This document shows, in pieces, positions 991-41,844 of a stretch of 41,853 nt of DNA; the stretch's first letter is position 1, and the number at the start of each line of letters is the position of its first letter. The stretch is from the IMG/VR virus record IMGVR_UViG_3300033143_006071, positions 1-41,853 of that record; one strand, written 5' to 3'. The notes under the pieces are model-generated. The model did no database searches, was not told the origin of the DNA, and saw only the letters and a list, made by a program, of their open reading frames with translations. Made by a program: the position numbers and the translations under genes. Source of the stretch: a virus.

Positions 991-1236
991 ATGAAAAAAG
1001 AAATTGATGTTTGGATAGGGTATGATGGAGATACTGTTAAGGGAGGTAACTTTAATATAAAGGGTCCATATTCGGAACAGATGTGGAGGAACAGTATAAA
1101 AGCAAAACTAATTATAGAAATGCCTGAACCAAAAATAGAGGTCACGGAGTCGGTAGTTCGGGGTACAATGAAGCGGCTACTAGAGAACCATGGAGACATC
1201 GAAAAAGCGATTAAAGAACTTTTCGGGGAGGGGTAA
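991..1236 (+). CDS. Hypothetical early protein, 81 aa
   Basis: 81 residues. ATG 991 is chosen because AAAGGAGAG precedes it; a GTG at 964 in the same frame lacks a ribosome site. A beta-rich N-terminal half (residues 1-30) precedes a charged helical C-terminus. The stop TAA shares one base with the ATG of the next gene, so the two are probably coupled. Family not recognised. Confidence 0.75.
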   Translation: MKKEIDVWIGYDGDTVKGGNFNIKGPYSEQMWRNSIKAKLIIEMPEPKIEVTESVVRGTMKRLLENHGDIEKAIKELFGEG

Positions 1237-1925
1237 TGAAAATTACTAAAAAAGAAGATCATTATTTATTAAAGAACGATGAGGGGGAATATCACCTCTC
1301 TTTAGAGGAGTTTAATTCTTTAGGTGAAAAAAAGGCTATAGAATTAGCTCGAGAAGAAATTAAAAAGAAACTAGACTTTAGAATTTATCCTTATGCTACT
1401 ATAAATTTTAGTCAAGCCAGCAATCTAGGTTTCTGTGAATTTGGGATCGAAGATTTCTGCCAATCTCTTTCTTTGGACCTTGAAGATACATATTCCATAA
1501 AGGATCTTAATAAAGGATTAACTATAGGTATTCTTAAGAGATATACTACTGAGTGTCTTAAATTGTTTGGGAGTAATACTTTAAAATATTTAGGAGGTGT
1601 GAAAGAGGTTTTATCGGAGGATACTATTGATCTTGTTCTTCGGGAGGAATTTATACCTGAAAAAACCCTACATACATTAAGTGTCAAGTTTGCTAAATCC
1701 TCTCTACATTTATTTGAATCTCAATATCCAAAGGATAGAAGACCTAGAGAGGCTATTGAAGCTAAAGAGGCTTTCATTAAAGGAGATATAACAAAAGAAC
1801 AGTTAGTGGCAGCACGCTCAGCAGCATACTCAGCACACTCAGCAGCATACTCAGCAGCATACTCAGCAGACTCAGCAGCACGCTCAGCATACTCAGCAGA
1901 CTCAGATCACTACAACGCGCTTTAA
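1236..1925 (+). CDS. Immunity-like protein with Ala/Ser/Tyr repeat tail
   Basis: 229 residues. Residues about 105-190 contain segments resembling a family often labelled putative immunity protein in phages and bacteria: a helical stretch with FESQYPKDRRPREAIEA followed by an acidic/Lys segment. The last 40 residues are a degenerate repeat of Ala-Ala-Tyr-Ser-type units, encoded by a TCAGCA-rich microsatellite at 1810-1909. Such tails are common in this family and probably vary in length between isolates. The role in a phage is unknown; the family assignment is from memory of the motif and is moderate. It is coupled to the gene before it by a TAATG overlap. Confidence 0.6.
   Translation: MKITKKEDHYLLKNDEGEYHLSLEEFNSLGEKKAIELAREEIKKKLDFRIYPYATINFSQASNLGFCEFGIEDFCQSLSLDLEDTYSIKDLNKGLTIGILKRYTTECLKLFGSNTLKYLGGVKEVLSEDTIDLVLREEFIPEKTLHTLSVKFAKSSLHLFESQYPKDRRPREAIEAKEAFIKGDITKEQLVAARSAAYSAHSAAYSAAYSADSAARSAYSADSDHYNAL
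1810..1909 (+). repeat. TCAGCA-type coding microsatellite
   Basis: Imperfect tandem units of about 9-15 bases built on TCAGCAGCATAC and TCAGCAGAC, in frame with the preceding gene, encoding Ser-Ala-Ala-Tyr/His/Asp/Arg units. Serine is always TCA, as in the two hexamer arrays upstream. Confidence 0.85.
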
Positions 1926-2454: not shown

Positions 2455-2724
2455 ATGAATGTAAACGATAACTATAGTCCAAACGTCGGAACGACGAGGG
2501 AACAAATAAATTCTTTTAAATCATTATTAAGTAAACTAAGTTACTGTAATGCTGCAGAGGGAAGTACTTATTTTAAAGAATCTCCATATCGTAAGGTAAT
2601 ACGGAAAAGGGTTATAGAGATAGGTAATATACTGTGCCAGGAAGGTATAGATGTAAATGATATAATGTCTAGTGGCAATTATCTTGTGTCATTAGATTTT
2701 AACATGGAGTGTCAAGGTGAGTAA
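2455..2724 (+). CDS. Hypothetical early protein, 89 aa
   Basis: 89 residues from ATG 2455 behind AAGGAG. Mostly helical and polar, with no recognisable domain. It overlaps the start of the PhaR-like gene by 8 bases and is therefore probably co-translated with it. Confidence 0.7.
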   Translation: MNVNDNYSPNVGTTREQINSFKSLLSKLSYCNAAEGSTYFKESPYRKVIRKRVIEIGNILCQEGIDVNDIMSSGNYLVSLDFNMECQGE

Positions 2725-2950
2725 TTCAACTATAAACGTAATTAAATATACCAATAGAAAATACTATAAGAGAGGGGACGGTTATTTCAACCTAAGAGAA
2801 TTAGCTGACTTTATAAAGAGTGGCATGGCTCTTGAAGTGGTGTCTAAGGATGGGGTGAGACTTACCCGTACTACACTAAAGGCTATAGTCAACCAACTAG
2901 ATTACAATGAGAAGGACTTATTAGATATGGTTAAGGCAGGGAAGCTATAA
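2717..2950 (+). CDS. PhaR-N-like DNA-binding regulator
   Basis: 77 residues from GTG 2717. Residues about 8-60 follow the pattern of the polyhydroxyalkanoate synthesis regulator DNA-binding domain (PHB_acc_N): a basic Lys-Tyr-x-Asn-Arg-Lys-Tyr-Tyr strand, then a Tyr-Phe-Asn-Leu-Arg-Glu-Leu helix, a Gly-x-x-Leu-x-Val-Val strand and a Leu-Thr-Arg-x-x-Leu helix. In bacteria PhaR represses granule-associated genes; it also carries a C-terminal region that is missing here. The phage version is essentially the bare DNA-binding domain, so it is probably a small transcription factor for phage or host genes. It is the last plus-strand gene before the opposed resolvase and the control region at 3.4-3.7 kb. 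Assignment is by pattern, not a profile search. Confidence 0.65.
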   Translation: MSNSTINVIKYTNRKYYKRGDGYFNLRELADFIKSGMALEVVSKDGVRLTRTTLKAIVNQLDYNEKDLLDMVKAGKL

Positions 2951-3716: not shown

Positions 3717-5832
3717 TTATAAGATTGAGTCAAGTAAGTATTTAGAGAATGGCTTATCAGTTATTCCAGATAAATATAAATCAAAACAACCTGCTATAAA
3801 GGCATGGTCAAAGTATAGCTATGAACACCCTTCAAAAGAAGAGGTAACCAGCTGGAATAATAGCTTTAATGAGTCTAACATAGCATTATGTTTAGGGGAA
3901 TCTAGTGGAGTTATTGCTTTAGATGTTGATACAATTGATCCTAAAGTAATGGCTATTATAGAACCTCTCCTACCTCCTAGTCCAGTTGAGAAGAAAGGTG
4001 CTAAAGGGTTTACTCGCTTTTATAAGTTTACAGGTGAAACTACTCAAATGCTGAAATATAACGGTGAAGTAGTATTGGAGATACTAAGCTCAAACAAGAA
4101 GACTACTCTTCCACCTAGTGTACACCCCAATGGTATGAAGTATGTGTGGACCTCAGAAAAGGTTCTAACAGATATAAACGCTTCAGAGCTGCCTATCCTA
4201 CCACCTATGCTAATTTCGCACTTAGAGAGCAAATTAAGGCTCCACATACCTGAATTAGTAGGAGTATCTAGAGGAAAGTTATTCTCTGGTAGGAATGACT
4301 CTCTTTCCTCGCTTTGTGGTAAGTTGATCCAGGAAGGTAAAAGTGTAGATGAGTGTACGAAAATCCTCGTACAAGAAGACATAAAGAATAATGATATACC
4401 TCTCTTTAGTGATCCTGAAGAAATGCAACATACTGAGCCCTTTACAAATGCTTTAATGTTTTATTCTAATCACTTAAGTAGTGTGAATAGTAAGAGATTT
4501 CGATCTAAAGAGGAGTATGAGACGCCTGTTACAGCGTCTGCTATTAACCATGAACATAAGGAGATAGTGGCTCAGGGAAAGTCACAAAAGGAGGTAAGCT
4601 CAAAAAAGTTAAAGAAGACAGAGTTGCCTTCTGCTCAAGGTGTAATGCAAACCGTTCAACAAAACATACTTGATAATAGTTTTATTAAACAGCCTGCTTT
4701 TGCTTTTAGTGCAAGTTTAATTTTAATGAGTACTTTAATTTCACGTAAGTTTACTTTTAAGGGAATGAGTTCCAACCTGTATGTTATCAATATAGCACCG
4801 TCAGGGTCGGGCAAGGATGCCCCTCAACAGAAACTTAAAGAGTACTTAATTGATATAAATGCAGATTCGTTATTAGGTGCAGGGGACTATGTGAGTGACG
4901 CCGCTCTTATGGACGGCTTAGAACAAAAGCCAGTGAGAATAGATATCATGGATGAAATCGGCGGCATTTTAAGGAGTATTACAAGTGGTAAAGCGGAATA
5001 TAACTCTAAAATGGCGGATGTGCTTGCGGAACTGTATACAAGCTCAAATACGATCTTCCTTGGAAGGGCAGTGGCAGATGGAGTCAAAGGAAGATGCTAT
5101 CGTCCTAACGTCAACATACTTGGATCCACAACACCAACCGGATTCATGGAAGGAATTTCTAGAAGAGCACTTGAAAAAGGACTTCTCGGAAGAATGTTGA
5201 TATTTGAAGGAGACTATGACCAGCCTGCTAAAAGAGTGCAGAAGTTTACTCACTTGGATAACAGAACTTTAAACAAATTGCGGTTTTTACATACATATCA
5301 GCCTGAAGAAAATAATGACATCATAGTTGCAGGGATACCCCAACTAGTGGAAGAGGTAAACGCGACCTCTAAAGCCGAGGAGAAATTAGATGAATACTTC
5401 ACTTTTTTTGACAGAATACGAACAACTAGTGATCACACTAATCCCCTTTTGCCTATTGTTGCTCGTTTATATCAACAAATGGTTAAAATAACCCTAATAC
5501 ATGCTGCATCCAGATGTGATATGTCAGCTCCTAGGGTCGATGTTATAGATGTTGAGTTTGGATATAAGACTATTCTTTATTATTATGAGAATATGAAGTC
5601 TATCCTAAAGAATTATATACATGATAGTCAAAATGGGCAGTTAAGAAGTAAGTTACTTAAGTTCATAAGAGAGAGGGAGGTCGCTACTAAAAGTAAGGTA
5701 ACACGCTTTCTTTCTGGCATGAATAAGAGACAGAGAGAGGATCTTATTACTGATTTAATTGATGGGGAATATATTGTGGTAGATGTACAGAACATTAATG
5801 GTAGAAACATGACTGTATACAGGTCTATCTAA
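3709..5832 (+). CDS. Primase-polymerase / helicase-like ATPase
   Basis: 707 residues. The N-terminal 230 residues resemble the bifunctional primase/polymerase (archaeo-eukaryotic Prim-Pol) domain: Gly15-Leu-Ser-Val-Ile-Pro start, Lys-x-Pro-x-x-x-x-Trp, and the metal-binding Asp72-Val-Asp74. From about 310 to 600 there is a DUF3987-like ATPase core with Walker A PSGSGKD (364-370) and Walker B Ile-Met-Asp-Glu near 415. The C-terminus (650-700) looks like a winged-helix. The probable role is priming and duplex opening at the phage origin, feeding the family A polymerase. It leads the replication operon. No separate helicase gene was seen, so this protein may supply that function. Confidence 0.8.
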   Translation: MHNYKIESSKYLENGLSVIPDKYKSKQPAIKAWSKYSYEHPSKEEVTSWNNSFNESNIALCLGESSGVIALDVDTIDPKVMAIIEPLLPPSPVEKKGAKGFTRFYKFTGETTQMLKYNGEVVLEILSSNKKTTLPPSVHPNGMKYVWTSEKVLTDINASELPILPPMLISHLESKLRLHIPELVGVSRGKLFSGRNDSLSSLCGKLIQEGKSVDECTKILVQEDIKNNDIPLFSDPEEMQHTEPFTNALMFYSNHLSSVNSKRFRSKEEYETPVTASAINHEHKEIVAQGKSQKEVSSKKLKKTELPSAQGVMQTVQQNILDNSFIKQPAFAFSASLILMSTLISRKFTFKGMSSNLYVINIAPSGSGKDAPQQKLKEYLIDINADSLLGAGDYVSDAALMDGLEQKPVRIDIMDEIGGILRSITSGKAEYNSKMADVLAELYTSSNTIFLGRAVADGVKGRCYRPNVNILGSTTPTGFMEGISRRALEKGLLGRMLIFEGDYDQPAKRVQKFTHLDNRTLNKLRFLHTYQPEENNDIIVAGIPQLVEEVNATSKAEEKLDEYFTFFDRIRTTSDHTNPLLPIVARLYQQMVKITLIHAASRCDMSAPRVDVIDVEFGYKTILYYYENMKSILKNYIHDSQNGQLRSKLLKFIREREVATKSKVTRFLSGMNKRQREDLITDLIDGEYIVVDVQNINGRNMTVYRSI

Positions 5833-5843
5833 GGAGGTGAAGT

Positions 5844-6281
5844 ATGGATAATTATTATTACTGTAATTGTAGAAAAGGATATGCTGAAGTAACAGAGACT
5901 AAAGAGGACAATATCTGTGTTCACTGTGGACACTACGCAGTAGCTACTAGAGAAAGCTGTAAGAAGCTACCACTGTATAACTACGTAGCTAAGCCTAGAA
6001 GGACCTCTAAGAAACATAGTATTACAGTATATAGAGCAAGTAATTTAGAGAAGGTAGGAGCACACTACATGGCTGTAGATGCAGAGAAGGAGTTAGGTCT
6101 AAAAAAAGGTCTTATTGCTAAATTTTTCTATGAAAAAAGACCTCATGTTAATGGGTATATTTTCGTAAAAGGATGGGACTCTCCTCTGAAGAGGGTGCAT
6201 TTTAATAGATTATTAAAAACATACAAGTATAGGAATGTTGTGTTAGATAAATTAACTGACTTAGGAGGAGTGAATGGATAA
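5844..6281 (+). CDS. Zinc-ribbon protein with NUMOD-like tail
   Basis: 145 residues. N-terminal Cys8-x-Cys10 and Cys-Val-His-Cys-Gly near 26-30 form a likely zinc ribbon. Residues about 75-115 (Ala-x-Asp-Ala-Glu-Lys-Glu-Leu-Gly-Leu ... Asn-Gly-Tyr-Ile-Phe) resemble the helix-turn-helix modules attached to homing endonucleases (NUMOD1 type). No nuclease motif is present, so it may be a DNA-binding remnant or a regulator. It follows the primase at 11 bases behind AAGGAGG. Confidence 0.6.
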   Translation: MDNYYYCNCRKGYAEVTETKEDNICVHCGHYAVATRESCKKLPLYNYVAKPRRTSKKHSITVYRASNLEKVGAHYMAVDAEKELGLKKGLIAKFFYEKRPHVNGYIFVKGWDSPLKRVHFNRLLKTYKYRNVVLDKLTDLGGVNG

Positions 6282-32006: not shown

Positions 32007-32342
32007 CTAGTAATTGTCAATAATATCATGACCGATAATCACAAGTTGGACATCTCCATCACTAAGTGCGGCTGTTTCATCAATATCATTAACCTTAACT
32101 ACAACAGTACTTGCAGTACATACTACAGTTACAGCTTTATCAACTGCTTCTGCGTTACCTACAGCATGACATGCCTCGGCAAATGGTTCTGTAAGTGTCA
32201 GTGTGTAATGACCTACACCCGTATCTACGATTGTTACTTTATTGGCATCCAATCCTTCAATAGAAGGAGTACCAGTACTACCTTCAATTCGTATTGCTAA
32301 TACCCTAACAGCTCTTTGAGCACTTTTAATTGATCTTTTCAT
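32007..32342 (-). CDS. Minor capsid / decoration protein candidate, 111 aa
   Basis: 111 residues. A basic start (KRSIKSAQRAVRVLAIRIEG) is followed by strands GVGHYTLTLTEPFAEA and VKVNDIDETAALSDGDVQLV. I recall similar short proteins directly after capsid genes in other short-tailed phages. A decoration or head-fibre base role is inferred from position. Confidence 0.6.
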   Translation of the reverse strand: MKRSIKSAQRAVRVLAIRIEGSTGTPSIEGLDANKVTIVDTGVGHYTLTLTEPFAEACHAVGNAEAVDKAVTVVCTASTVVVKVNDIDETAALSDGDVQLVIIGHDIIDNY

Positions 32343-33724: not shown

Positions 33725-34876
33725 TTAAATATCATCCCAATCCAATATTTCTTCGCCTTGTTGGTCTACTATTGGTTTGATTTCGCTATTTTCCTGCTCT
33801 ACAGATTTATTAACTTTAGATTGTTTCTTAGAGACCGTCTCTACGATTTTCTCTTCAGCTACTTCTTTCTTAGAGCTTCCAAAAGCTTGTACTAAAATAT
33901 CCTGAATATCCGAATCCGTGAAATCAGGGTTTTTGATGATAATGTCTTGTAGGTTCTCTATAACTTCTTCGTTACCCAAATAAGATGAATCAAACTGGTC
34001 AATAGCAGCTTTAGCGATATCTTCAGACTTCGAAAACTGAATATATTCCTTAACCGTATCAATAGTTAAACTTTCTTCCGGGGGAAGAGATTTATCGAGA
34101 TATGCTACTGCATCTTCCCACTCACTATTATCAACTCCTAGAGTTTCCCGGGCTTGAGATATTTTAAAACTAAGTTCCTTTTGGGCTTGCTCGGTTTCAA
34201 ACTTCTGTCGATCAGACTCTGTTTTTTCTTTTAAATATTTAATCTCATTTTGCTGATATTCTAAATCAATACCTTCTTGAGACATTCCTTCCAATCTTTC
34301 TAATTCTGGAAGTATTTCTTTAATTAATGCAGCCTTTATAGCATGGGCAGGCATATTAACCATCTCCCCTACCTTATAAAAACCTTCTAAAACACTGTTC
34401 TCTTTCATTGTTTTTCCAAGCTCACTCACATAAGAGTTGATATCTTGGACCTCTTTCTTAAAAGATTGTCTTTCCGTATCCATCTCGCTAAACTTTTTAT
34501 CATAAGCGACCTTACCCGAATAGTTATTTTTTAATTCTTGTAGAGAGATCTCTTCAACCTTCCCATCTACCTTAACCTCATAAAGCTCCTCTTTAGATTC
34601 TTTACTCTCTTCTTCTTCTTCTTCTTTGGCTTCAAGAGGTTCTTTTTCTTCTTTTTCGATATCCTCTTCTTTTTCTATCTTTTCTTCTTTAGGAGCCTCT
34701 TCCTCAAGATTTTCAATCTCTTTTTCAATATCTTCAGTATCTCCATTATCAGACATAGTGACGCCTTTCTCTTCGGCTTCATAAGCGTCTTCCGCGTCAT
34801 CTTCTATTTCTAACCACTCATTATCCGAGGTAATACTGTCTGGTGTAAACTCATGTACTGCTGCTGCATTACTCAT
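33725..34876 (-). CDS. Scaffold protein
   Basis: 383 residues, highly acidic. Residues about 45-100 are Glu/Lys repeats, followed by a long coiled coil (residues 115-240) and an Asp/Glu-rich end with a helix (EVIENLQDIIIKNPDFTDS). No catalytic motif. Between portal and capsid, this composition is the rule for assembly scaffolds that drive procapsid formation and are then removed or cleaved. Confidence 0.8.
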   Translation of the reverse strand: MSNAAAVHEFTPDSITSDNEWLEIEDDAEDAYEAEEKGVTMSDNGDTEDIEKEIENLEEEAPKEEKIEKEEDIEKEEKEPLEAKEEEEEESKESKEELYEVKVDGKVEEISLQELKNNYSGKVAYDKKFSEMDTERQSFKKEVQDINSYVSELGKTMKENSVLEGFYKVGEMVNMPAHAIKAALIKEILPELERLEGMSQEGIDLEYQQNEIKYLKEKTESDRQKFETEQAQKELSFKISQARETLGVDNSEWEDAVAYLDKSLPPEESLTIDTVKEYIQFSKSEDIAKAAIDQFDSSYLGNEEVIENLQDIIIKNPDFTDSDIQDILVQAFGSSKKEVAEEKIVETVSKKQSKVNKSVEQENSEIKPIVDQQGEEILDWDDI

Positions 34877-34888
34877 AACATCTCCCGA

Positions 34889-37000
34889 TTATTTTAATTG
34901 ACTCTTTGCATGCTCTTGTGCTTTCATATCTTCTGTAGAGGAGCCAGGTATATTTCCCTGTACTTCATCACCTCTATTAGCCTGTCCTTGTACCATAGCT
35001 ATCTGCTGCTCCATTGATCTAGGTGCTACAAACCCTTCATGATGAAATAATGGAAATAGCATAAGTGTAGCTAATTTAGCTTCAAACTCAGGGTTATTTC
35101 TCATCTTATCTATCATAGCTTCTTCAGTCCAATATACATGATCTTTCATAGCACTTCGTGCCTCTGGATCGGCTTCTTCTTTAAAGGTCCTTGTTTGCAT
35201 AGATCGTGCATGAGATTCCCAATGCTGGATATGGTCTTCCCATTCTTCAGGCATAGATGCTCCTCTTCCTGCCATAAGATCTTCAGTCTCGCTATCAGCA
35301 GCTCTAAGTGCAGATGTAATTAACGAGTTCATCTTCTCAGTATTTGCTAACTCTAGTAGATCAGTCCATCTCTCAGGAGACATCATTTGTGGGTTTCTTT
35401 GCATAGCATCTAGGATTCTTTGGAATTTTCCCGACTTCGACTCCGGTAACCCAGTACTATTATCGAATCGAACATCATAAGACTTGTGTAAGTGGGCAGA
35501 ATCAAAGTGCCTGATAGAATATTTGTTATTCTCACCAACAATGCGCAGCATACGACCATCTTCAATATCATAATTTTGCCCTACAACTGCAATAGTCATT
35601 TTAGCTAAGTCTTTAACTAAAAATCCATGTTTAGATATATCACTAGTGGCTCTTTCATTTTCTAATTCGTTTAGAAACTGGAGAGCAGATGCTGCTGTGA
35701 TTCCTTTAGGAACCTCTCCACGAGATATACCATGAGATCCATAAATTACCTGCATCTCTTCTTTTATATTTTGTCTAAAATTATATACTTCTGGTGCATT
35801 AGGTTGCATCTGTACCATCTGTGGGGCAACAGGACCTTGGTATTGTAATATAGTATTATCATTACCTAATTGATCAATTTTACATGCTCCACGAGGCATC
35901 ATCCACTTCTGATGAGCCATAAGATATATGTTTTTACTTATCAAAGTTGACATGTTGTTATACATATTCTGTAGAGGGGATATCATCTCATATCGAGATA
36001 CGCCATTTAGAACATCAGGTACATCCATATCAGTAAGTCTAATAATAGGAAGTTCTTCATGATTAAAAGGATAATCTATATTTTCTAGTATAGCGTCTTT
36101 AGTAAATTTTATAAACCGCCCTTTAGGTACATATTTAGTAGGCTTGTGGTACATTTCAAATACTAATGTATGTTCTTCCAAGAATCTACTATCTAAATTA
36201 TCCATGTCAAAAGTACTTACTCCATCTGTGGACTGTATTTCATTTTTAAATTTAGGGTAATCTTCTTTAAGTTCTTCAGTAGGTCTAACTTTAACTCTAA
36301 ATAAATACTCTACCTCGTCATATCTCATTTTTCTTTGGAGTAGTACTCTCCAGGGAAGTTCTGGTTCAAAACAGACATCTCCTGTTTTAATGGGTTTGTC
36401 TAGCTTAAGGGTCTGTCCATTAGGGAGTTTAACTTCTTTTATTCCTGCATCCCTAGCCTGTACATATGCAGGATCTAAATCACCTAGATCATCATTCCAT
36501 AATACAAATGTATAGGATTCCCCAAAAATGCGACATTCTCTATGCATCTTAGTAATCATATCATCCATATTATTGTTGTACCAGATGTGCTTAATTAACT
36601 GTCCAACTACTTTAGCTGATATACGATCCGCATACTCATCATTTGTAGGCAGAACTTCTACGGCTGGTTTTAATCTAGTCATCTGAGATACTTTGGTCTC
36701 AGTAAGATCAAATAAATGGTTTACTATAAACTTTTGAACTTTATTAAGTCTTCTTATTGAGCGGTCGCGATCTACACCCATCTCTCTAGTTATATTAGGA
36801 TCTATCCCTCTATACATGTGAAGATTGGCTCTTTGTATGGATGTGCGATTTTGTGATTGATTGATTAATGCTTCAGAAGCTGAATTTAGCCAGTCGAGAA
36901 GTTCACCATCTTTTTTCTTGATAATCTTAAAAAAAGGTTTTTCTTTCAATTCCGGATCTACATCAATAGAATCAAAAGAGTCGAATAGACTATCTGACAT
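34889..37000 (-). CDS. Portal protein
   Basis: 703 residues. N-terminal helices, then IVNHLFDLTETKVSQMTRLK, a segment like the portal wing with GESYTFVLWNDD, a long helix (VLNGVSRYEMISPLQNMYNN) and the KGITAASALQFLNELENERAT crown/stem region, with a polar C-terminus. Size and order of elements are like P22-type portals. It forms the dodecameric ring through which DNA is packed and ejected. Confidence 0.8.
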   Translation of the reverse strand: MSDSLFDSFDSIDVDPELKEKPFFKIIKKKDGELLDWLNSASEALINQSQNRTSIQRANLHMYRGIDPNITREMGVDRDRSIRRLNKVQKFIVNHLFDLTETKVSQMTRLKPAVEVLPTNDEYADRISAKVVGQLIKHIWYNNNMDDMITKMHRECRIFGESYTFVLWNDDLGDLDPAYVQARDAGIKEVKLPNGQTLKLDKPIKTGDVCFEPELPWRVLLQRKMRYDEVEYLFRVKVRPTEELKEDYPKFKNEIQSTDGVSTFDMDNLDSRFLEEHTLVFEMYHKPTKYVPKGRFIKFTKDAILENIDYPFNHEELPIIRLTDMDVPDVLNGVSRYEMISPLQNMYNNMSTLISKNIYLMAHQKWMMPRGACKIDQLGNDNTILQYQGPVAPQMVQMQPNAPEVYNFRQNIKEEMQVIYGSHGISRGEVPKGITAASALQFLNELENERATSDISKHGFLVKDLAKMTIAVVGQNYDIEDGRMLRIVGENNKYSIRHFDSAHLHKSYDVRFDNSTGLPESKSGKFQRILDAMQRNPQMMSPERWTDLLELANTEKMNSLITSALRAADSETEDLMAGRGASMPEEWEDHIQHWESHARSMQTRTFKEEADPEARSAMKDHVYWTEEAMIDKMRNNPEFEAKLATLMLFPLFHHEGFVAPRSMEQQIAMVQGQANRGDEVQGNIPGSSTEDMKAQEHAKSQLK

Positions 37001-37008
37001 TTATGCTC

Positions 37009-37323
37009 CTAAAAGCTATGTATTGCTTTATCTTCGTCGGATTCTACAAATTCGGGGAGATCACTCTCTAACTGCTCTTTATACGATTTTTGTTGCTTAA
37101 CCAGCTCGGCTTCAGTTGTTGCCCATTTATTGTTTTTTAGAATCTTTTCGTTGTGCTTATCGATTTCTTCGTCGACAGGCTGATAAGTAATACTATGTGT
37201 ACTCTTCTCAAATGCCAATACACGGACATAAGAGAGTAGACCTAATATAGTACCAATTAGTCCAAATGTAAAGCCTAAAATTGATAATACTAAGACTAAT
37301 GTAGCTAAATCATGTGAAATCAT
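37009..37323 (-). CDS. Membrane protein with coiled-coil tail, 104 aa
   Basis: 104 residues. One or two closely spaced hydrophobic segments at residues 5-35 (LATLVLVLSILGFTFGLIG), then an acidic and Lys-rich helical tail. The layout (N-terminal anchor, long helical tail) would suit an inner-membrane spanin, but no partner outer-membrane lipoprotein is certain. First gene after the promoter/operator at 37378-37406. Confidence 0.6.
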   Translation of the reverse strand: MISHDLATLVLVLSILGFTFGLIGTILGLLSYVRVLAFEKSTHSITYQPVDEEIDKHNEKILKNNKWATTEAELVKQQKSYKEQLESDLPEFVESDEDKAIHSF

Positions 37324-37377: not shown

Positions 37378-37406
37378 ATAGTACCATACCCGTACTAACT
37401 TTACAA
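37378..37406 (-). promoter_or_regulatory. Promoter with AGTAC-N7-GTACT operator (portal operon)
   Basis: On the minus strand: -35 TTGTAA (37406-37401), 17 bases, -10 TACTAT (37383-37378). The dyad AGTAC-CATACCC-GTACT (37380-37396) covers the spacer and the first part of the -10. The -35 overlaps the stop of the preceding gene. The same dyad occurs at the promoter at 41802-41844. A protein bound there would block the polymerase. Confidence 0.6.
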
Positions 37407-37640
37407 GACATCTTCAAAATCATCATAATCTTCAAGAGTTATGTGCTCATGTTCTTTAGCAAGCTCTTCTAAAGTTTGTTGAGAAGTCATTAACCTTAAG
37501 TGATTCTCAAGTCGCGCCCAAACAGCTAATTGATAGTTATCAACCATAGTGAAAAATACATCATGTAAGTATAAGTATTTGTTCAGTAACCATAAATAAA
37601 TCGCAATTAGTTTATTTTTTATCCATATAAGTATTGACAT
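37401..37640 (-). CDS. Small protein with N-terminal hydrophobic helix, 79 aa
   Basis: 79 residues. N-terminal amphipathic/hydrophobic region (SILIWIKNKLIAIYLWLLNK) and an acidic C-terminus (DYDDFEDVL). GAGGAG upstream. It stands alone between the duplicated control element (37656-37756) and the portal-operon promoter. Confidence 0.6.
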   Translation of the reverse strand: MSILIWIKNKLIAIYLWLLNKYLYLHDVFFTMVDNYQLAVWARLENHLRLMTSQQTLEELAKEHEHITLEDYDDFEDVL

Positions 37641-37655
37641 ATAGCCATTCTCCTC

Positions 37656-37756
37656 TATAATAAGACCTAATTAGACCTCAATAAATTAATACACTCTTTT
37701 CAATTTTATGCGCCTATAAGGCGCGCTAATCCTAAGGGTCTCTTAGGTCATGTTCT
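37656..37756 (-). promoter_or_regulatory. Duplicated ~100-bp control element, copy 2
   Basis: Reading the minus strand: AGAACATGACC (37756-37746), TTAGGATTA (37735-37727), hairpin GCGCC-TTATA-GGCGC (37724-37710) followed by ATAA, an A/T-rich stretch, then AGGTCTTATTATA (37668-37656). A second AGGTCT lies 10 bases upstream (37678-37673). Block order and spacing match copy 1 at 3452-3553. An extra stem CCTAAG/CTTAGG (37731-37747) falls within the first gap. It follows the large terminase stop and precedes the next small gene. Confidence 0.7.
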
Positions 37757-37761
37757 AGGTC

Positions 37762-39255
37762 TTACTCCCAATAATCACTTTCAATATCATCTTCCCAATT
37801 AATACCTTCTTCTTGTCTATCGTGCATATGGCGAAATCTCCCGTCTACAATAGGATCTATATTCTTTACATACTGGACTGTAGTATGAGAGTCATAATTA
37901 CACGCTTGGTTCAAATACCTAAAACAATCTATTAAATGATCATTTTTCTTAGGTATGTTACCTTTCTGGTCCTTAGCATAGTGTTGCATCTCTTTGTATA
38001 GATGTTTACACTTATCTGATATTACAATAGTGTTATGTAGTAATTGATCTTTAATAACACCTAATCCCTCTTCTTTATCTCCATGTCTTTTATCTGTGGG
38101 ACTAAAATATATCTCATGCTCAGCCATTGCTTCTGTAATAAACCACGCAGCAGCTTCGTCAGCTACTTTAAACCAATCGTCCTTAACATTACCTTCAGGG
38201 TAAAGAAGTAAAGATTCCTTACATATTCTATTACATACGGACCTTGTGGTAGTTTTCATCTGATCTGTCACATACATCTCATTTAAGAGGTATAACTTCT
38301 TGGTCCAGGGATTGAGTGCTGCAAACAGTACTGCGAAACAAGTTGTATTCCCTGGGTCGGCTACTACGTACCACTCTAACTTCTTTAAATCACGTTTAAC
38401 CTCTTCATATACTTCATGGTGGGGCTTAACATGCTTTTCTGACAGCATCGGAAAGATGGCGGATTTGCCTCCTAATACGATTTTAGAGTAATACTCCCGT
38501 TGCACTATGTCTTCATCTCCACGAAGCCTTAGACGGGCTATTTCGGCTTCAATAAAGGACTTATTAGAAGGAAGGTGATTAATTGGGTTATCCCAAGTAG
38601 TTTTAAAGAAAACGCGAGATCGCGGATCCTTCTGAGCATATTCTAACAATGAGTTATATTGGTCCATATTCTTATCACCTACTTTAGGTAGGGTTCCAAT
38701 AACTATAAGAGGAGCCGCTTTTGCTGCCCTATTAGGTGAGAACTCGACATGCCACTGAGGGTGGAATACTTTCATCTCATCATAAACCACGATACTAGGA
38801 GTTAGTCCATTTCCGGCTGCCCAGTTATCTGATCCCATTATTTGGATAAAAGACCCATTAACAAGCCCAAGCTTCATTTCCTGGTTCTTAGTAGAAGATA
38901 TATACTTTCTGGTCTCAGGTCCCATAAACTTCTGAAAACGTTGAAGATCCCACATAATCTTCCTAGCATGCGCTGCTTCTGGTCCAATGTAATAACAAGC
39001 ACTTCCAGGGTTAAATAAGGCATGTCTCCATAGAACATAAGCAGCTAGCTCAGACTTTCCAAACTTCCTGGCACAGGGTAAGAACAGTGTATCTATGCTA
39101 CATTTCTTATCATATAGGGGTGCCAGTACCTCAATTTGACCATCATGGAGTCTTGTTTTTAGACCTACCTTAAGACCATCTCCACGGGCTTTGTTAAGAT
39201 CTTCTATAATTTGTAAATATTCTTGTTCCTGTACGGAAACTAGTACGTTAGACAT
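37762..39255 (-). CDS. terL: Terminase large subunit
   Basis: 497 residues. ATPase: Walker A-like CARKFGKSEL (61-70) and Walker B SIVVYDE with Asp159-Glu160; nuclease: WYVVADPGN with Asp300 and acidic residues later (ADEAAAW, LIDCFRY). It cuts concatemers and pumps DNA into the procapsid. Full length for the family. Shares a minus-strand operon with the small subunit. Confidence 0.95.
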   Translation of the reverse strand: MSNVLVSVQEQEYLQIIEDLNKARGDGLKVGLKTRLHDGQIEVLAPLYDKKCSIDTLFLPCARKFGKSELAAYVLWRHALFNPGSACYYIGPEAAHARKIMWDLQRFQKFMGPETRKYISSTKNQEMKLGLVNGSFIQIMGSDNWAAGNGLTPSIVVYDEMKVFHPQWHVEFSPNRAAKAAPLIVIGTLPKVGDKNMDQYNSLLEYAQKDPRSRVFFKTTWDNPINHLPSNKSFIEAEIARLRLRGDEDIVQREYYSKIVLGGKSAIFPMLSEKHVKPHHEVYEEVKRDLKKLEWYVVADPGNTTCFAVLFAALNPWTKKLYLLNEMYVTDQMKTTTRSVCNRICKESLLLYPEGNVKDDWFKVADEAAAWFITEAMAEHEIYFSPTDKRHGDKEEGLGVIKDQLLHNTIVISDKCKHLYKEMQHYAKDQKGNIPKKNDHLIDCFRYLNQACNYDSHTTVQYVKNIDPIVDGRFRHMHDRQEEGINWEDDIESDYWE

Positions 39256-39290: not shown

Positions 39291-39768
39291 TTACACATTT
39301 TCTACAACTATCTCATCTATAGCATTAAATTCTAACGCTTTATCGCTCATCCACCATATATTAGCTATAACCATCAAACGATATACTTCTGCAGACACTC
39401 CAAGACGCTTAGACTCTATCTTCTGGACGTGTCTTTCAAGTTCTTCTAATACGAAGTATAGCGAAACACATAGAGGCACATATTCCGGTTACTATACCAT
39501 CTATCTTTCTTCCACTTTTCTGTAAGGCTCTAATATAGTTCATTAGTTTGAATCCTGCAAATACTGATCCTCCAGGAGAATCTAATTCTATAGTTAAAAC
39601 CTCTTCTATAGGTTTACTTATATGAGCAGATCTAAGATCATCTATAACATTATCTATAGAATCATAATTAACTTCGTCTAATATAGAGGATGTAGTAGTT
39701 AAAGCTAAACAGTTTACTGAGGTTAGCAGTATCGTTAATAGGAGTAGTCCTCTAAATGTCTTTTTCAT
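39291..39768 (-). pseudogene. Frameshifted ClpP/SppA-like serine protease with signal peptide
   Basis: The first part (39768-39436, 110 residues) has a signal peptide or lipoprotein-like leader (KKTFRGLLLLTILLTSVNC), then LTIELDSPGGSVFAGFKLM and GICASMCFAI, with Ser99 in the place of the catalytic Ser. It then runs into an early stop. The second part continues in the next frame (to 39291) with LEELERHVQKIESKRLGVS, WWMSDKALEFNAIDEIV, the normal end of the family. The segment between them, which should hold the catalytic His, is missing. Either a deletion with frameshift made this a remnant, or two short proteins are made. Head maturation does not require it if capsid uses an unprocessed scaffold. 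Confidence 0.65.
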
Positions 39769-40246
39769 CTTCTTTTACCTCTTTAAATTCTATCTCTGGC
39801 ACGTCTGCAAAAGGATCTAATCTTATTTTCTCATGCAATACGTCTATAGCAAAAGGTTTTTCTTCAGTAATTTCAGTAGGTCTACCATCATCTAGCCGGG
39901 TAATCTTGTCTAAGGATTCTAATACTTGAGCGATCTTACCTAATTCAGCAGGTGTTGCCCCTTCTGCTTTAGACGCCATATTTGCCAGGGATTTATCTAT
40001 GATCTTCATAGCGTTCTCAGACATTCTGGTAAAGTGAGCTTTTTTTGTCGAGGTAAAGTGCTGAAATAACTCTGCTTTAGCAAGCTCTCTATCTACTTTC
40101 CAGTACTTATTGGCATGGTAACTTACAGAGGTACGGGCTAGGCTGTACTTAGAAGCAATCTCTGTTACAGAGTGATAGCTAAGATACATCTCTTTAGCAC
40201 CTTCTAATTGCTTAGGTGTAAGTTGTGTTACTTTCTTATTTTTCAT
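39752..40246 (-). CDS. terS: Terminase small subunit
   Basis: 164 residues. Residues 8-50 form a helix-turn-helix (LTPKQLEGAKEMYLSYHSVT, then SLARTSVSYHANKYW); a helical middle precedes an acidic, Pro-containing tail that would contact the large subunit. It overlaps the protease remnant gene by 17 bases. It recognises the packaging start site. Confidence 0.75.
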   Translation of the reverse strand: MKNKKVTQLTPKQLEGAKEMYLSYHSVTEIASKYSLARTSVSYHANKYWKVDRELAKAELFQHFTSTKKAHFTRMSENAMKIIDKSLANMASKAEGATPAELGKIAQVLESLDKITRLDDGRPTEITEEKPFAIDVLHEKIRLDPFADVPEIEFKEVKEDEKDI

Positions 40247-41282: not shown

Positions 41283-41559
41283 TACTATCTATATAATTCA
41301 CTATCTTAGGTGATATATACCTAATAGAGTATTCTTCAGTATCATCCTCTTTCTCACAAGGGTTCTTAAATAGGGAACAATCCTCATAAGCCACATGTAA
41401 AAGCTCATGAAACAGAGTCTCAGCTTGTATCTCTTTAGAGAATCTAGTATTGATCCAAATCTTCTTCTCAGCCAGATCAGTAGATCCATGATCTTCATCA
41501 CTCATTTTCTGAAATGTTACATCATACGTGAATAAACCTAGTTTAGCTTTTTTAGTCAT
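41248..41559 (-). CDS. Metallopeptidase-like protein, 103 aa
   Basis: 103 residues with His51-Glu-Leu-Leu-His55 (ETLFHELLHVAYED), the HExxH zinc site of a minimal metallopeptidase-like fold, preceded by a beta strand with Asp-Leu-Ala-Glu-Lys-Lys-Ile-Trp-Ile. Such short phage proteins (ImmA/IrrE- or SprT-related) are common; they may cleave host regulators. A third zinc ligand is not certain. Confidence 0.65.
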   Translation of the reverse strand: MTKKAKLGLFTYDVTFQKMSDEDHGSTDLAEKKIWINTRFSKEIQAETLFHELLHVAYEDCSLFKNPCEKEDDTEEYSIRYISPKIVNYIDSNGWVKDFIFGN

Positions 41560-41786
41560 CCTCTAGCCTTTTCTAACTCTTCATCGGCTCTCTCACATAA
41601 CTCAGGATCCAGGTAAGAAAGCTGTCTTCTATAAAAATTAGCTCTATTTCTCTGGATATTACTCAAGTTTGAGTAACGTAACTCTCCTTGCATCATAAAG
41701 AACTTTGCTATCTGAGCAGGACTTCTTTTATATAATTCTGGATTATCCCTAAAACAGGCTTCTACTTCGGCATCTATTGAGATCAT
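41556..41786 (-). CDS. Hypothetical protein, 76 aa
   Basis: 76 residues, the first gene of the minus-strand unit, ATGA-coupled to the metallopeptidase-like gene. Helical and charged, with aromatic and Arg-rich middle (IQRNRANFYRRQLSYLD). It could bind DNA but shows no specific motif. Directly downstream of the strong promoter at 41816-41844. Confidence 0.65.
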   Translation of the reverse strand: MISIDAEVEACFRDNPELYKRSPAQIAKFFMMQGELRYSNLSNIQRNRANFYRRQLSYLDPELCERADEELEKARG

Positions 41787-41801: not shown

Positions 41802-41844
41802 AGTACTAACTTCGTACTATATACCAGAAAAAGAAAGTTGTCAA
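41802..41844 (-). promoter_or_regulatory. Strong promoter with AGTAC-N7-GTACT operator (minus-strand unit)
   Basis: On the minus strand: -35 TTGACA (41844-41839, consensus), 17 bases, -10 TATAGT (41821-41816). The dyad AGTAC-TAACTTC-GTACT (41802-41818) covers the last part of the -10 and the start point. It is the best promoter in the window and would drive the packaging operon. The same dyad is at 37380-37396. Confidence 0.75.

Follow-up and report, generated by a model that had tools for sequence, protein, structure and literature searches.

In lambda-type operators, 17-bp palindromes overlap the PR and PRM promoters and are bound by CI and Cro; phi29 p4 and the mycobacteriophage stoperators are further cases in which phage regulators act through repeated sites overlapping promoters. 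The dyad AGTAC-N7-GTACT described here is like the lambda-type operators in that a 17-bp imperfect palindrome lies over core promoter elements and several copies would control phage transcription units. It differs in sequence and in its position at late structural promoters; each promoter has a single site where lambda has triplets, and no protein resembling CI or Cro was found here. With phi29 p4 and the stoperators it would share the principle of one protein coordinating early and late transcription from several sites, although the dyad sequence is unrelated and a homologous regulator was not detected here.

In the literature, near-matches to the motif were found only for LexA and LysX, both with other spacing. 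The cyanobacterial LexA box, AGTACWNWTGTACT, is a repressor operator with AGTAC/GTACT half-sites (PMC3091678). These half-sites are identical to those of the dyad, but the arms are 4 bp apart instead of 7 and the inner TA...TA bases differ; all sites found here had the N7 spacing and none had AGTAC-N4-GTACT. No lexA was found in the phages, and there was no sign of cyanobacterial hosts. The predicted LysX operator of Desulfovibrio, GTGGTACTAATcAGTACCAC, which belongs to a bacterial lysine-gene regulator (PMC545781), has the core palindrome GTACT...AGTAC, but its GTG/CAC flanks are longer and its GTAC cores are closer together than in the dyad. The dyad would be of a known kind, the coordinated phage operator, with a sequence for which we found no exact published match.

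The window analysed here is a whole IMG/VR virus record of 41,853 bases; on its right side the late genes form a block on the minus strand. The packaging operon contains, in order, a 76-aa gene, a metallopeptidase-like gene, an endonuclease VII-like gene, a small-terminase-like HTH gene, a protease gene and the terminase gene. It is followed by a gap with a 79-aa ORF, and then by a 104-aa gene, the portal, a scaffold-like protein and the capsid. The features at the two dyads were as follows.

41839-41844, minus strand: -35 element TTGACA of the packaging-operon promoter (promoter scan)
41816-41821, minus strand: -10 element TATAGT of the packaging-operon promoter (promoter scan, 11/12)
41802-41818: site 2, dyad AGTAC-N7-GTACT, minus-strand reading AGTACGAAGTTAGTACT (exact pattern search)
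41556-41786, minus strand: conserved 76-aa gene that opens the packaging operon (tblastn finds homologues where the operon begins in L005, L011, L013, L017, L035 and others)
39752-40246, minus strand: small-terminase-like HTH protein of the packaging operon (weak matches to the Pfam families YlxM/p13 HTH and Terminase_5; conserved family with the HTH aligned)
37762-39255, minus strand: terminase large subunit (phrog_2, E 1.1e-20)
37401-37406, minus strand: -35-like TTGTAA of the pre-portal promoter (from sequence; overlaps the end of ORF 37401-37640)
37380-37396: site 1, dyad AGTAC-N7-GTACT, minus-strand reading AGTACGGGTATGGTACT (exact pattern search)
37378-37383, minus strand: -10-like TACTAT of the pre-portal promoter (from sequence; extended, with TGG in front)
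37009-37323, minus strand: 104-aa pre-portal protein; its gene is the first one downstream of site 1 (conserved, same place in relatives)
34889-37000, minus strand: portal protein (phrog_156, E 1.4e-24)
33725-34876, minus strand: scaffold-like protein (phrog_3927; homologues in relatives carry a third dyad promoter, C)

Site 2 precedes the packaging operon, which includes the terminase large subunit and the protease, by 16 bp, and site 1 precedes the 104-aa gene in front of the portal by 57 bp; these genes agree with the packaging and portal operons to which the earlier note had assigned the two sites. The scaffold-like gene of the window has no gap and no dyad in front.

Some other features of the window were also recorded. 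G+C-rich hairpins (GCGCC-TTATA-GGCGC) were found in the terminase-portal gap of the window (37641-37761) and of L008 (1950-2180), while L004-L006 have no gap, and the gap may represent a terminator plus a new promoter inserted in the lineage of the window and L008. A perfect consensus promoter on the plus strand, TTGACA-16-TATAAT (37634-37661, promoter scan), lies in the terminase/portal gap antisense to the terminase. The left end contains dense GGTCA-type hexamer repeats (GGTCAAGGTCATGGTCAG...) at 101-301 and 588-760, which ORF 665-958 reads through (VMVKVRVMVK...). No tRNA was found in the window.

Through exact pattern search, we found exactly two copies of AGTAC-N7-GTACT in the window, at the two positions given by the earlier note, which had seen no others by eye. 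Dinucleotide shuffles of the window had a mean of 0.07 copies, and none of 100 reached two. With the same arms and any other spacer from 0 to 20 there was no second copy, and the N2 spacer gave one case (position 32268). To allow for look-elsewhere, a simulation counted any dyad with 5-bp arms not made of A and T only and a spacer of 3-12 that was present twice in noncoding DNA; such a repeated dyad turned up in about 8% of the simulated windows. The window alone is therefore suggestive of an operator and not conclusive, and the decision was left to the relatives.

Both dyads overlap the -10 of a minus-strand promoter, as had been proposed, and they do so from opposite sides; in each, the -10 lies at the edge of the dyad and not at its centre. 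The site 2 promoter is strong (TTGACA, 17-nt spacer, TATAGT), and the dyad shares the final 3 nt of the -10, from where it continues downstream. At site 1 (TTGTAA, 17-nt spacer, TACTAT) the dyad occupies most of the promoter spacer and has 4 nt in common with the -10. The description of both promoters as good sigma70-like holds for site 2; the hexamers of site 1 match at 4/6 and 4/6 and fell below the cut-off of the promoter scan, so the promoter was not listed there. It is weak by its hexamers, yet it has an extended -10, TGG-TACTAT.

For comparison, 80 IMG/VR loci were gathered by terminase alignment. The exact pattern occurred at 12 sites in 50 related records, whereas the reversed pattern, as control, occurred at one. 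Of the 12, about half were at promoters and the remainder in coding sequence. The exact sites inside the terminase genes of G006, G028 and G029 belong to the codons for a conserved VVQxEYYS stretch and were put down to coincidence, and the one of G004, within a tail gene, was treated in the same way. A fuller dyad, AGTACTA-N3-TAGTACT, a near-perfect 17-bp palindrome, was found in a clade of uncultured phages whose terminases are about 55-60% identical. Three homologous late promoters bear it, at the following positions.

Position A, start of the packaging operon (at most one mismatch): G008 (6556), G012/L020, L055, L076 and window site 2
Position B, upstream of the pre-portal gene (at most one mismatch): G008, L017-L019, L020, L022, L025/L028, L035, L036 and window site 1; with two mismatches, L016, L024 and L027
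Position C, in front of the scaffold gene (at most one mismatch): G008, L016, L020, L022, L025/L028 and L027; by matrix also L024 and L036

In G008, G009, G012, G013, G016 and G018, sites with at most one mismatch are located 13-25 bp upstream of pre-portal, scaffold and packaging genes. The B and C dyads usually lie 12 bp after a TTGAC(A/T) or TTGATT -35, with the -10 inside the dyad and GGAGG and a start codon close behind. The relation to the -10 varies: it is centred in B and C, on the upstream side in window site 1, L015_A and L020_A, and on the downstream side in window site 2. Site 1 has GTTAGTAC-N3-TATGGTACTAT and its promoter geometry in common with L020_A, the packaging-operon site of L020, and the geometry also matches L015_A. 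In L017, L018, L019 and L035 the dyad lies within a short conserved ORF, so it is not strictly intergenic there. A strict promoter-plus-dyad pattern matched 9 contigs in all IMG/VR, in every case at the promoter of the scaffold gene in this phage group: five were already known C sites and four were further contigs, with the match between the portal and scaffold genes. The strict pattern of site 2 plus its promoter matched no other contig.

The dyad is not present throughout the group. L008, the closest relative (terminase 80% identical), has no dyad at the site 1 position and keeps a TTGACA-17-TACACT promoter, and L011 keeps TTGACA-17-TATTAT without the dyad. Because the -35 and -10 persist in both, the dyad is a separate module. 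In L004-L006 the promoter gap is missing at the site 1 position, and most of the more distant loci have no dyad. Three changes account for the dyad label on the portal tree, where it clusters strongly (none of 500 shuffles gave so low a number). The lack of conservation which, for the earlier note, would refute the site is seen in L008 and many others and clearly not in the sister clade; the same palindrome is found above chance at two or more promoters and is conserved at homologous ones, L008 excepted. From these sequence comparisons, the dyad is very probably a lineage-specific late-promoter operator and not a universal one in the group. Two loci without AGTAC have other palindromes over a late-promoter -10, ATCTTA-N5-TAAGAT (L005, 241-282) and ACTAAA-N9-TTTAGT (L037, about 4545-4580), which are possibly operators of changed specificity and are not significant alone.

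We also scanned 14,336 combinations of 5-bp arm and spacer in the B and C gaps (terminase-portal and post-portal) of 25 relatives, leaving the window out. The top four included AGTAC-N7 and two sub-views of its palindrome, with TATTA-N3 in first place; these gaps are A+T-rich. A symmetric matrix was then built from hand-picked sites, for which the window, G039 and G045 were not used. In these two distant near-complete relatives it found three sites of at least 16 bits in G039 (0.13 expected) and two in G045 (0.10 expected), located at late genes or shortly ahead of them. Four strong sites were found in G008, and none of at least 16 bits in the seven longer genomes assigned to the class without the dyad. 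Site 2 scored about 18, where about 0.08 sites of at least 16 are expected per genome. Site 1 scored 10.8, near the background maximum for a genome of this size, because its inner bases differ while its arms are exact. We consider site 2 highly likely to be a real site, and site 1 likely so.

A shared protein-binding site that controls late genes is well supported, since relatives have the dyad at their homologous late promoters; very probably a regulator that times these genes docks there. We rather favour a 17-bp operator for a dimeric regulator with coordinated control by repression. The palindrome AGTACTA-N3-TAGTACT would be built into late promoters, both packaging and head, centred on or touching the sigma-70-type -10. 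A dimer bound there early in infection would exclude the host RNA polymerase, and later the late promoters would fire together. Occlusion is the most likely mode of control, as judged from the -10 overlap. Only late genes carry the dyad, with one per promoter and 2-4 sites per genome; together with the -10 overlap, the variable side and the loss of the dyad without loss of the promoter, this fits a dimer that occludes polymerase. The variable position relative to the -10 also suits occlusion better than an activator of fixed geometry. Of the shared repressor site claimed by the earlier note, the shared site at late promoters is borne out by the relatives, and the repressor role is the part read from the -10 overlap.

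Neither of the binders suggested by that note, a PhaR-like protein and small zinc proteins, follows the distribution of the dyad, and the PhaR-like protein was rejected for this reason. The PhaR/PHB_acc_N domain is usually known from bacterial polyhydroxyalkanoate regulation, and small proteins resembling it are common in the early region of the group (window 2717-2950; G004, G006, G042, G044 and others). PF07879 was found in G004, G006, G031, G038, G042, G044, G047 and G049, nearly all without promoter dyads, and was absent from the dyad-bearing G008, G039 and G045; the match in the window is weak, and the resemblance in G039 and G045 is weak and non-significant. Two of the zinc proteins have no homologue in dyad-bearing genomes, and the third (5844-6281) has weak homologues in genomes both with and without the dyad and was rejected as not discriminating. 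A zinc-like motif, CxC...CxxCGHYA, is common to small proteins at window 5844-6281, L101 1880-2137 and L133 19321-19500, in phages with and without the dyad. The small-terminase HTH, common to most phages of the group, likewise occurs in both kinds of phage, and its recognition helix does not separate them cleanly. An Imm5-like protein (window 1236-1925) is shared only with G008 among the genomes compared, and two genomes are too few; it has SAAYSA-type repeats, and G008 has three adjacent related ORFs (L099 2616-3733). No protein was common to the window, G008, G039 and G045 yet missing from the other genomes compared.

The binder might tentatively be sought in the host, as a transcription factor (e.g. 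a LexA-type or stress regulator) whose operator was adopted by the phages, which is compatible with repression. The operator is conserved across phages with terminases only about 45-57% identical while no phage protein tracks with it, and 20 mostly unassigned proteins scanned in G008 gave no convincing Pfam DNA-binding domain, the small-terminase-like HTH aside. The half-sites equal those of the LexA box, but the spacing is N7 and not N4, and the small early phage proteins, mostly without annotation, could include the binder. The further idea that a host regulator reads the operator fused to the -10, so that the physiological state of the host and not a phage-encoded switch releases the late genes, is rather doubtful. 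Two scans of 84,980 GTDB genomes with terminase alignments found no relative for the patterns tried, and the terminase, portal and capsid showed nothing above about 27% identity to INPHARED isolates.

It is unlikely that the dyad binds a phage late activator, which would act positively by aiding polymerase at weak late promoters. The restriction to late genes would suit such a protein, as would the strikingly fixed B/C geometry, with TTGA(C/T) 12 bp before the dyad, and the weak hexamers at several dyad promoters including window site 1. However, a protein bound to the dyad would sit on the -10 and would normally block polymerase, the geometry is not the same between site types, and sister-phage promoters without the dyad still have good hexamers, as though they could do without an activator.

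Chance, in the sense of two unrelated matches in the window, is quite improbable. It draws on the look-elsewhere rate given above and, for site 1 especially, on the near-background score and the missing dyad of L008. Against it, independent relatives have the dyad at homologous positions, site 2 scores far above expectation, and the flanks and geometry of site 1 are common to L020_A. A symmetric -10 firing both ways without a separate binding protein is very improbable: the N7 centre of the B/C sites (TACTAT/TAATAT/TATAAT) is -10-like on both strands, but the conserved GTAC arms lie outside the hexamer, the -10 is at the dyad edge in both window sites, and by eye the opposite strand has no -35-like hexamer at the matching distance and the 3' flank is a Shine-Dalgarno and gene start. 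An RNA hairpin was rejected by reasoning, since site 1 is upstream of the transcription start and site 2 straddles it.

As a shared late operator, the dyad is a concrete candidate element for the timing of late genes in uncultured phages. AGTACTA-N3-TAGTACT may be used as bait for the regulator, and if this is a host protein, it could help to name the host.
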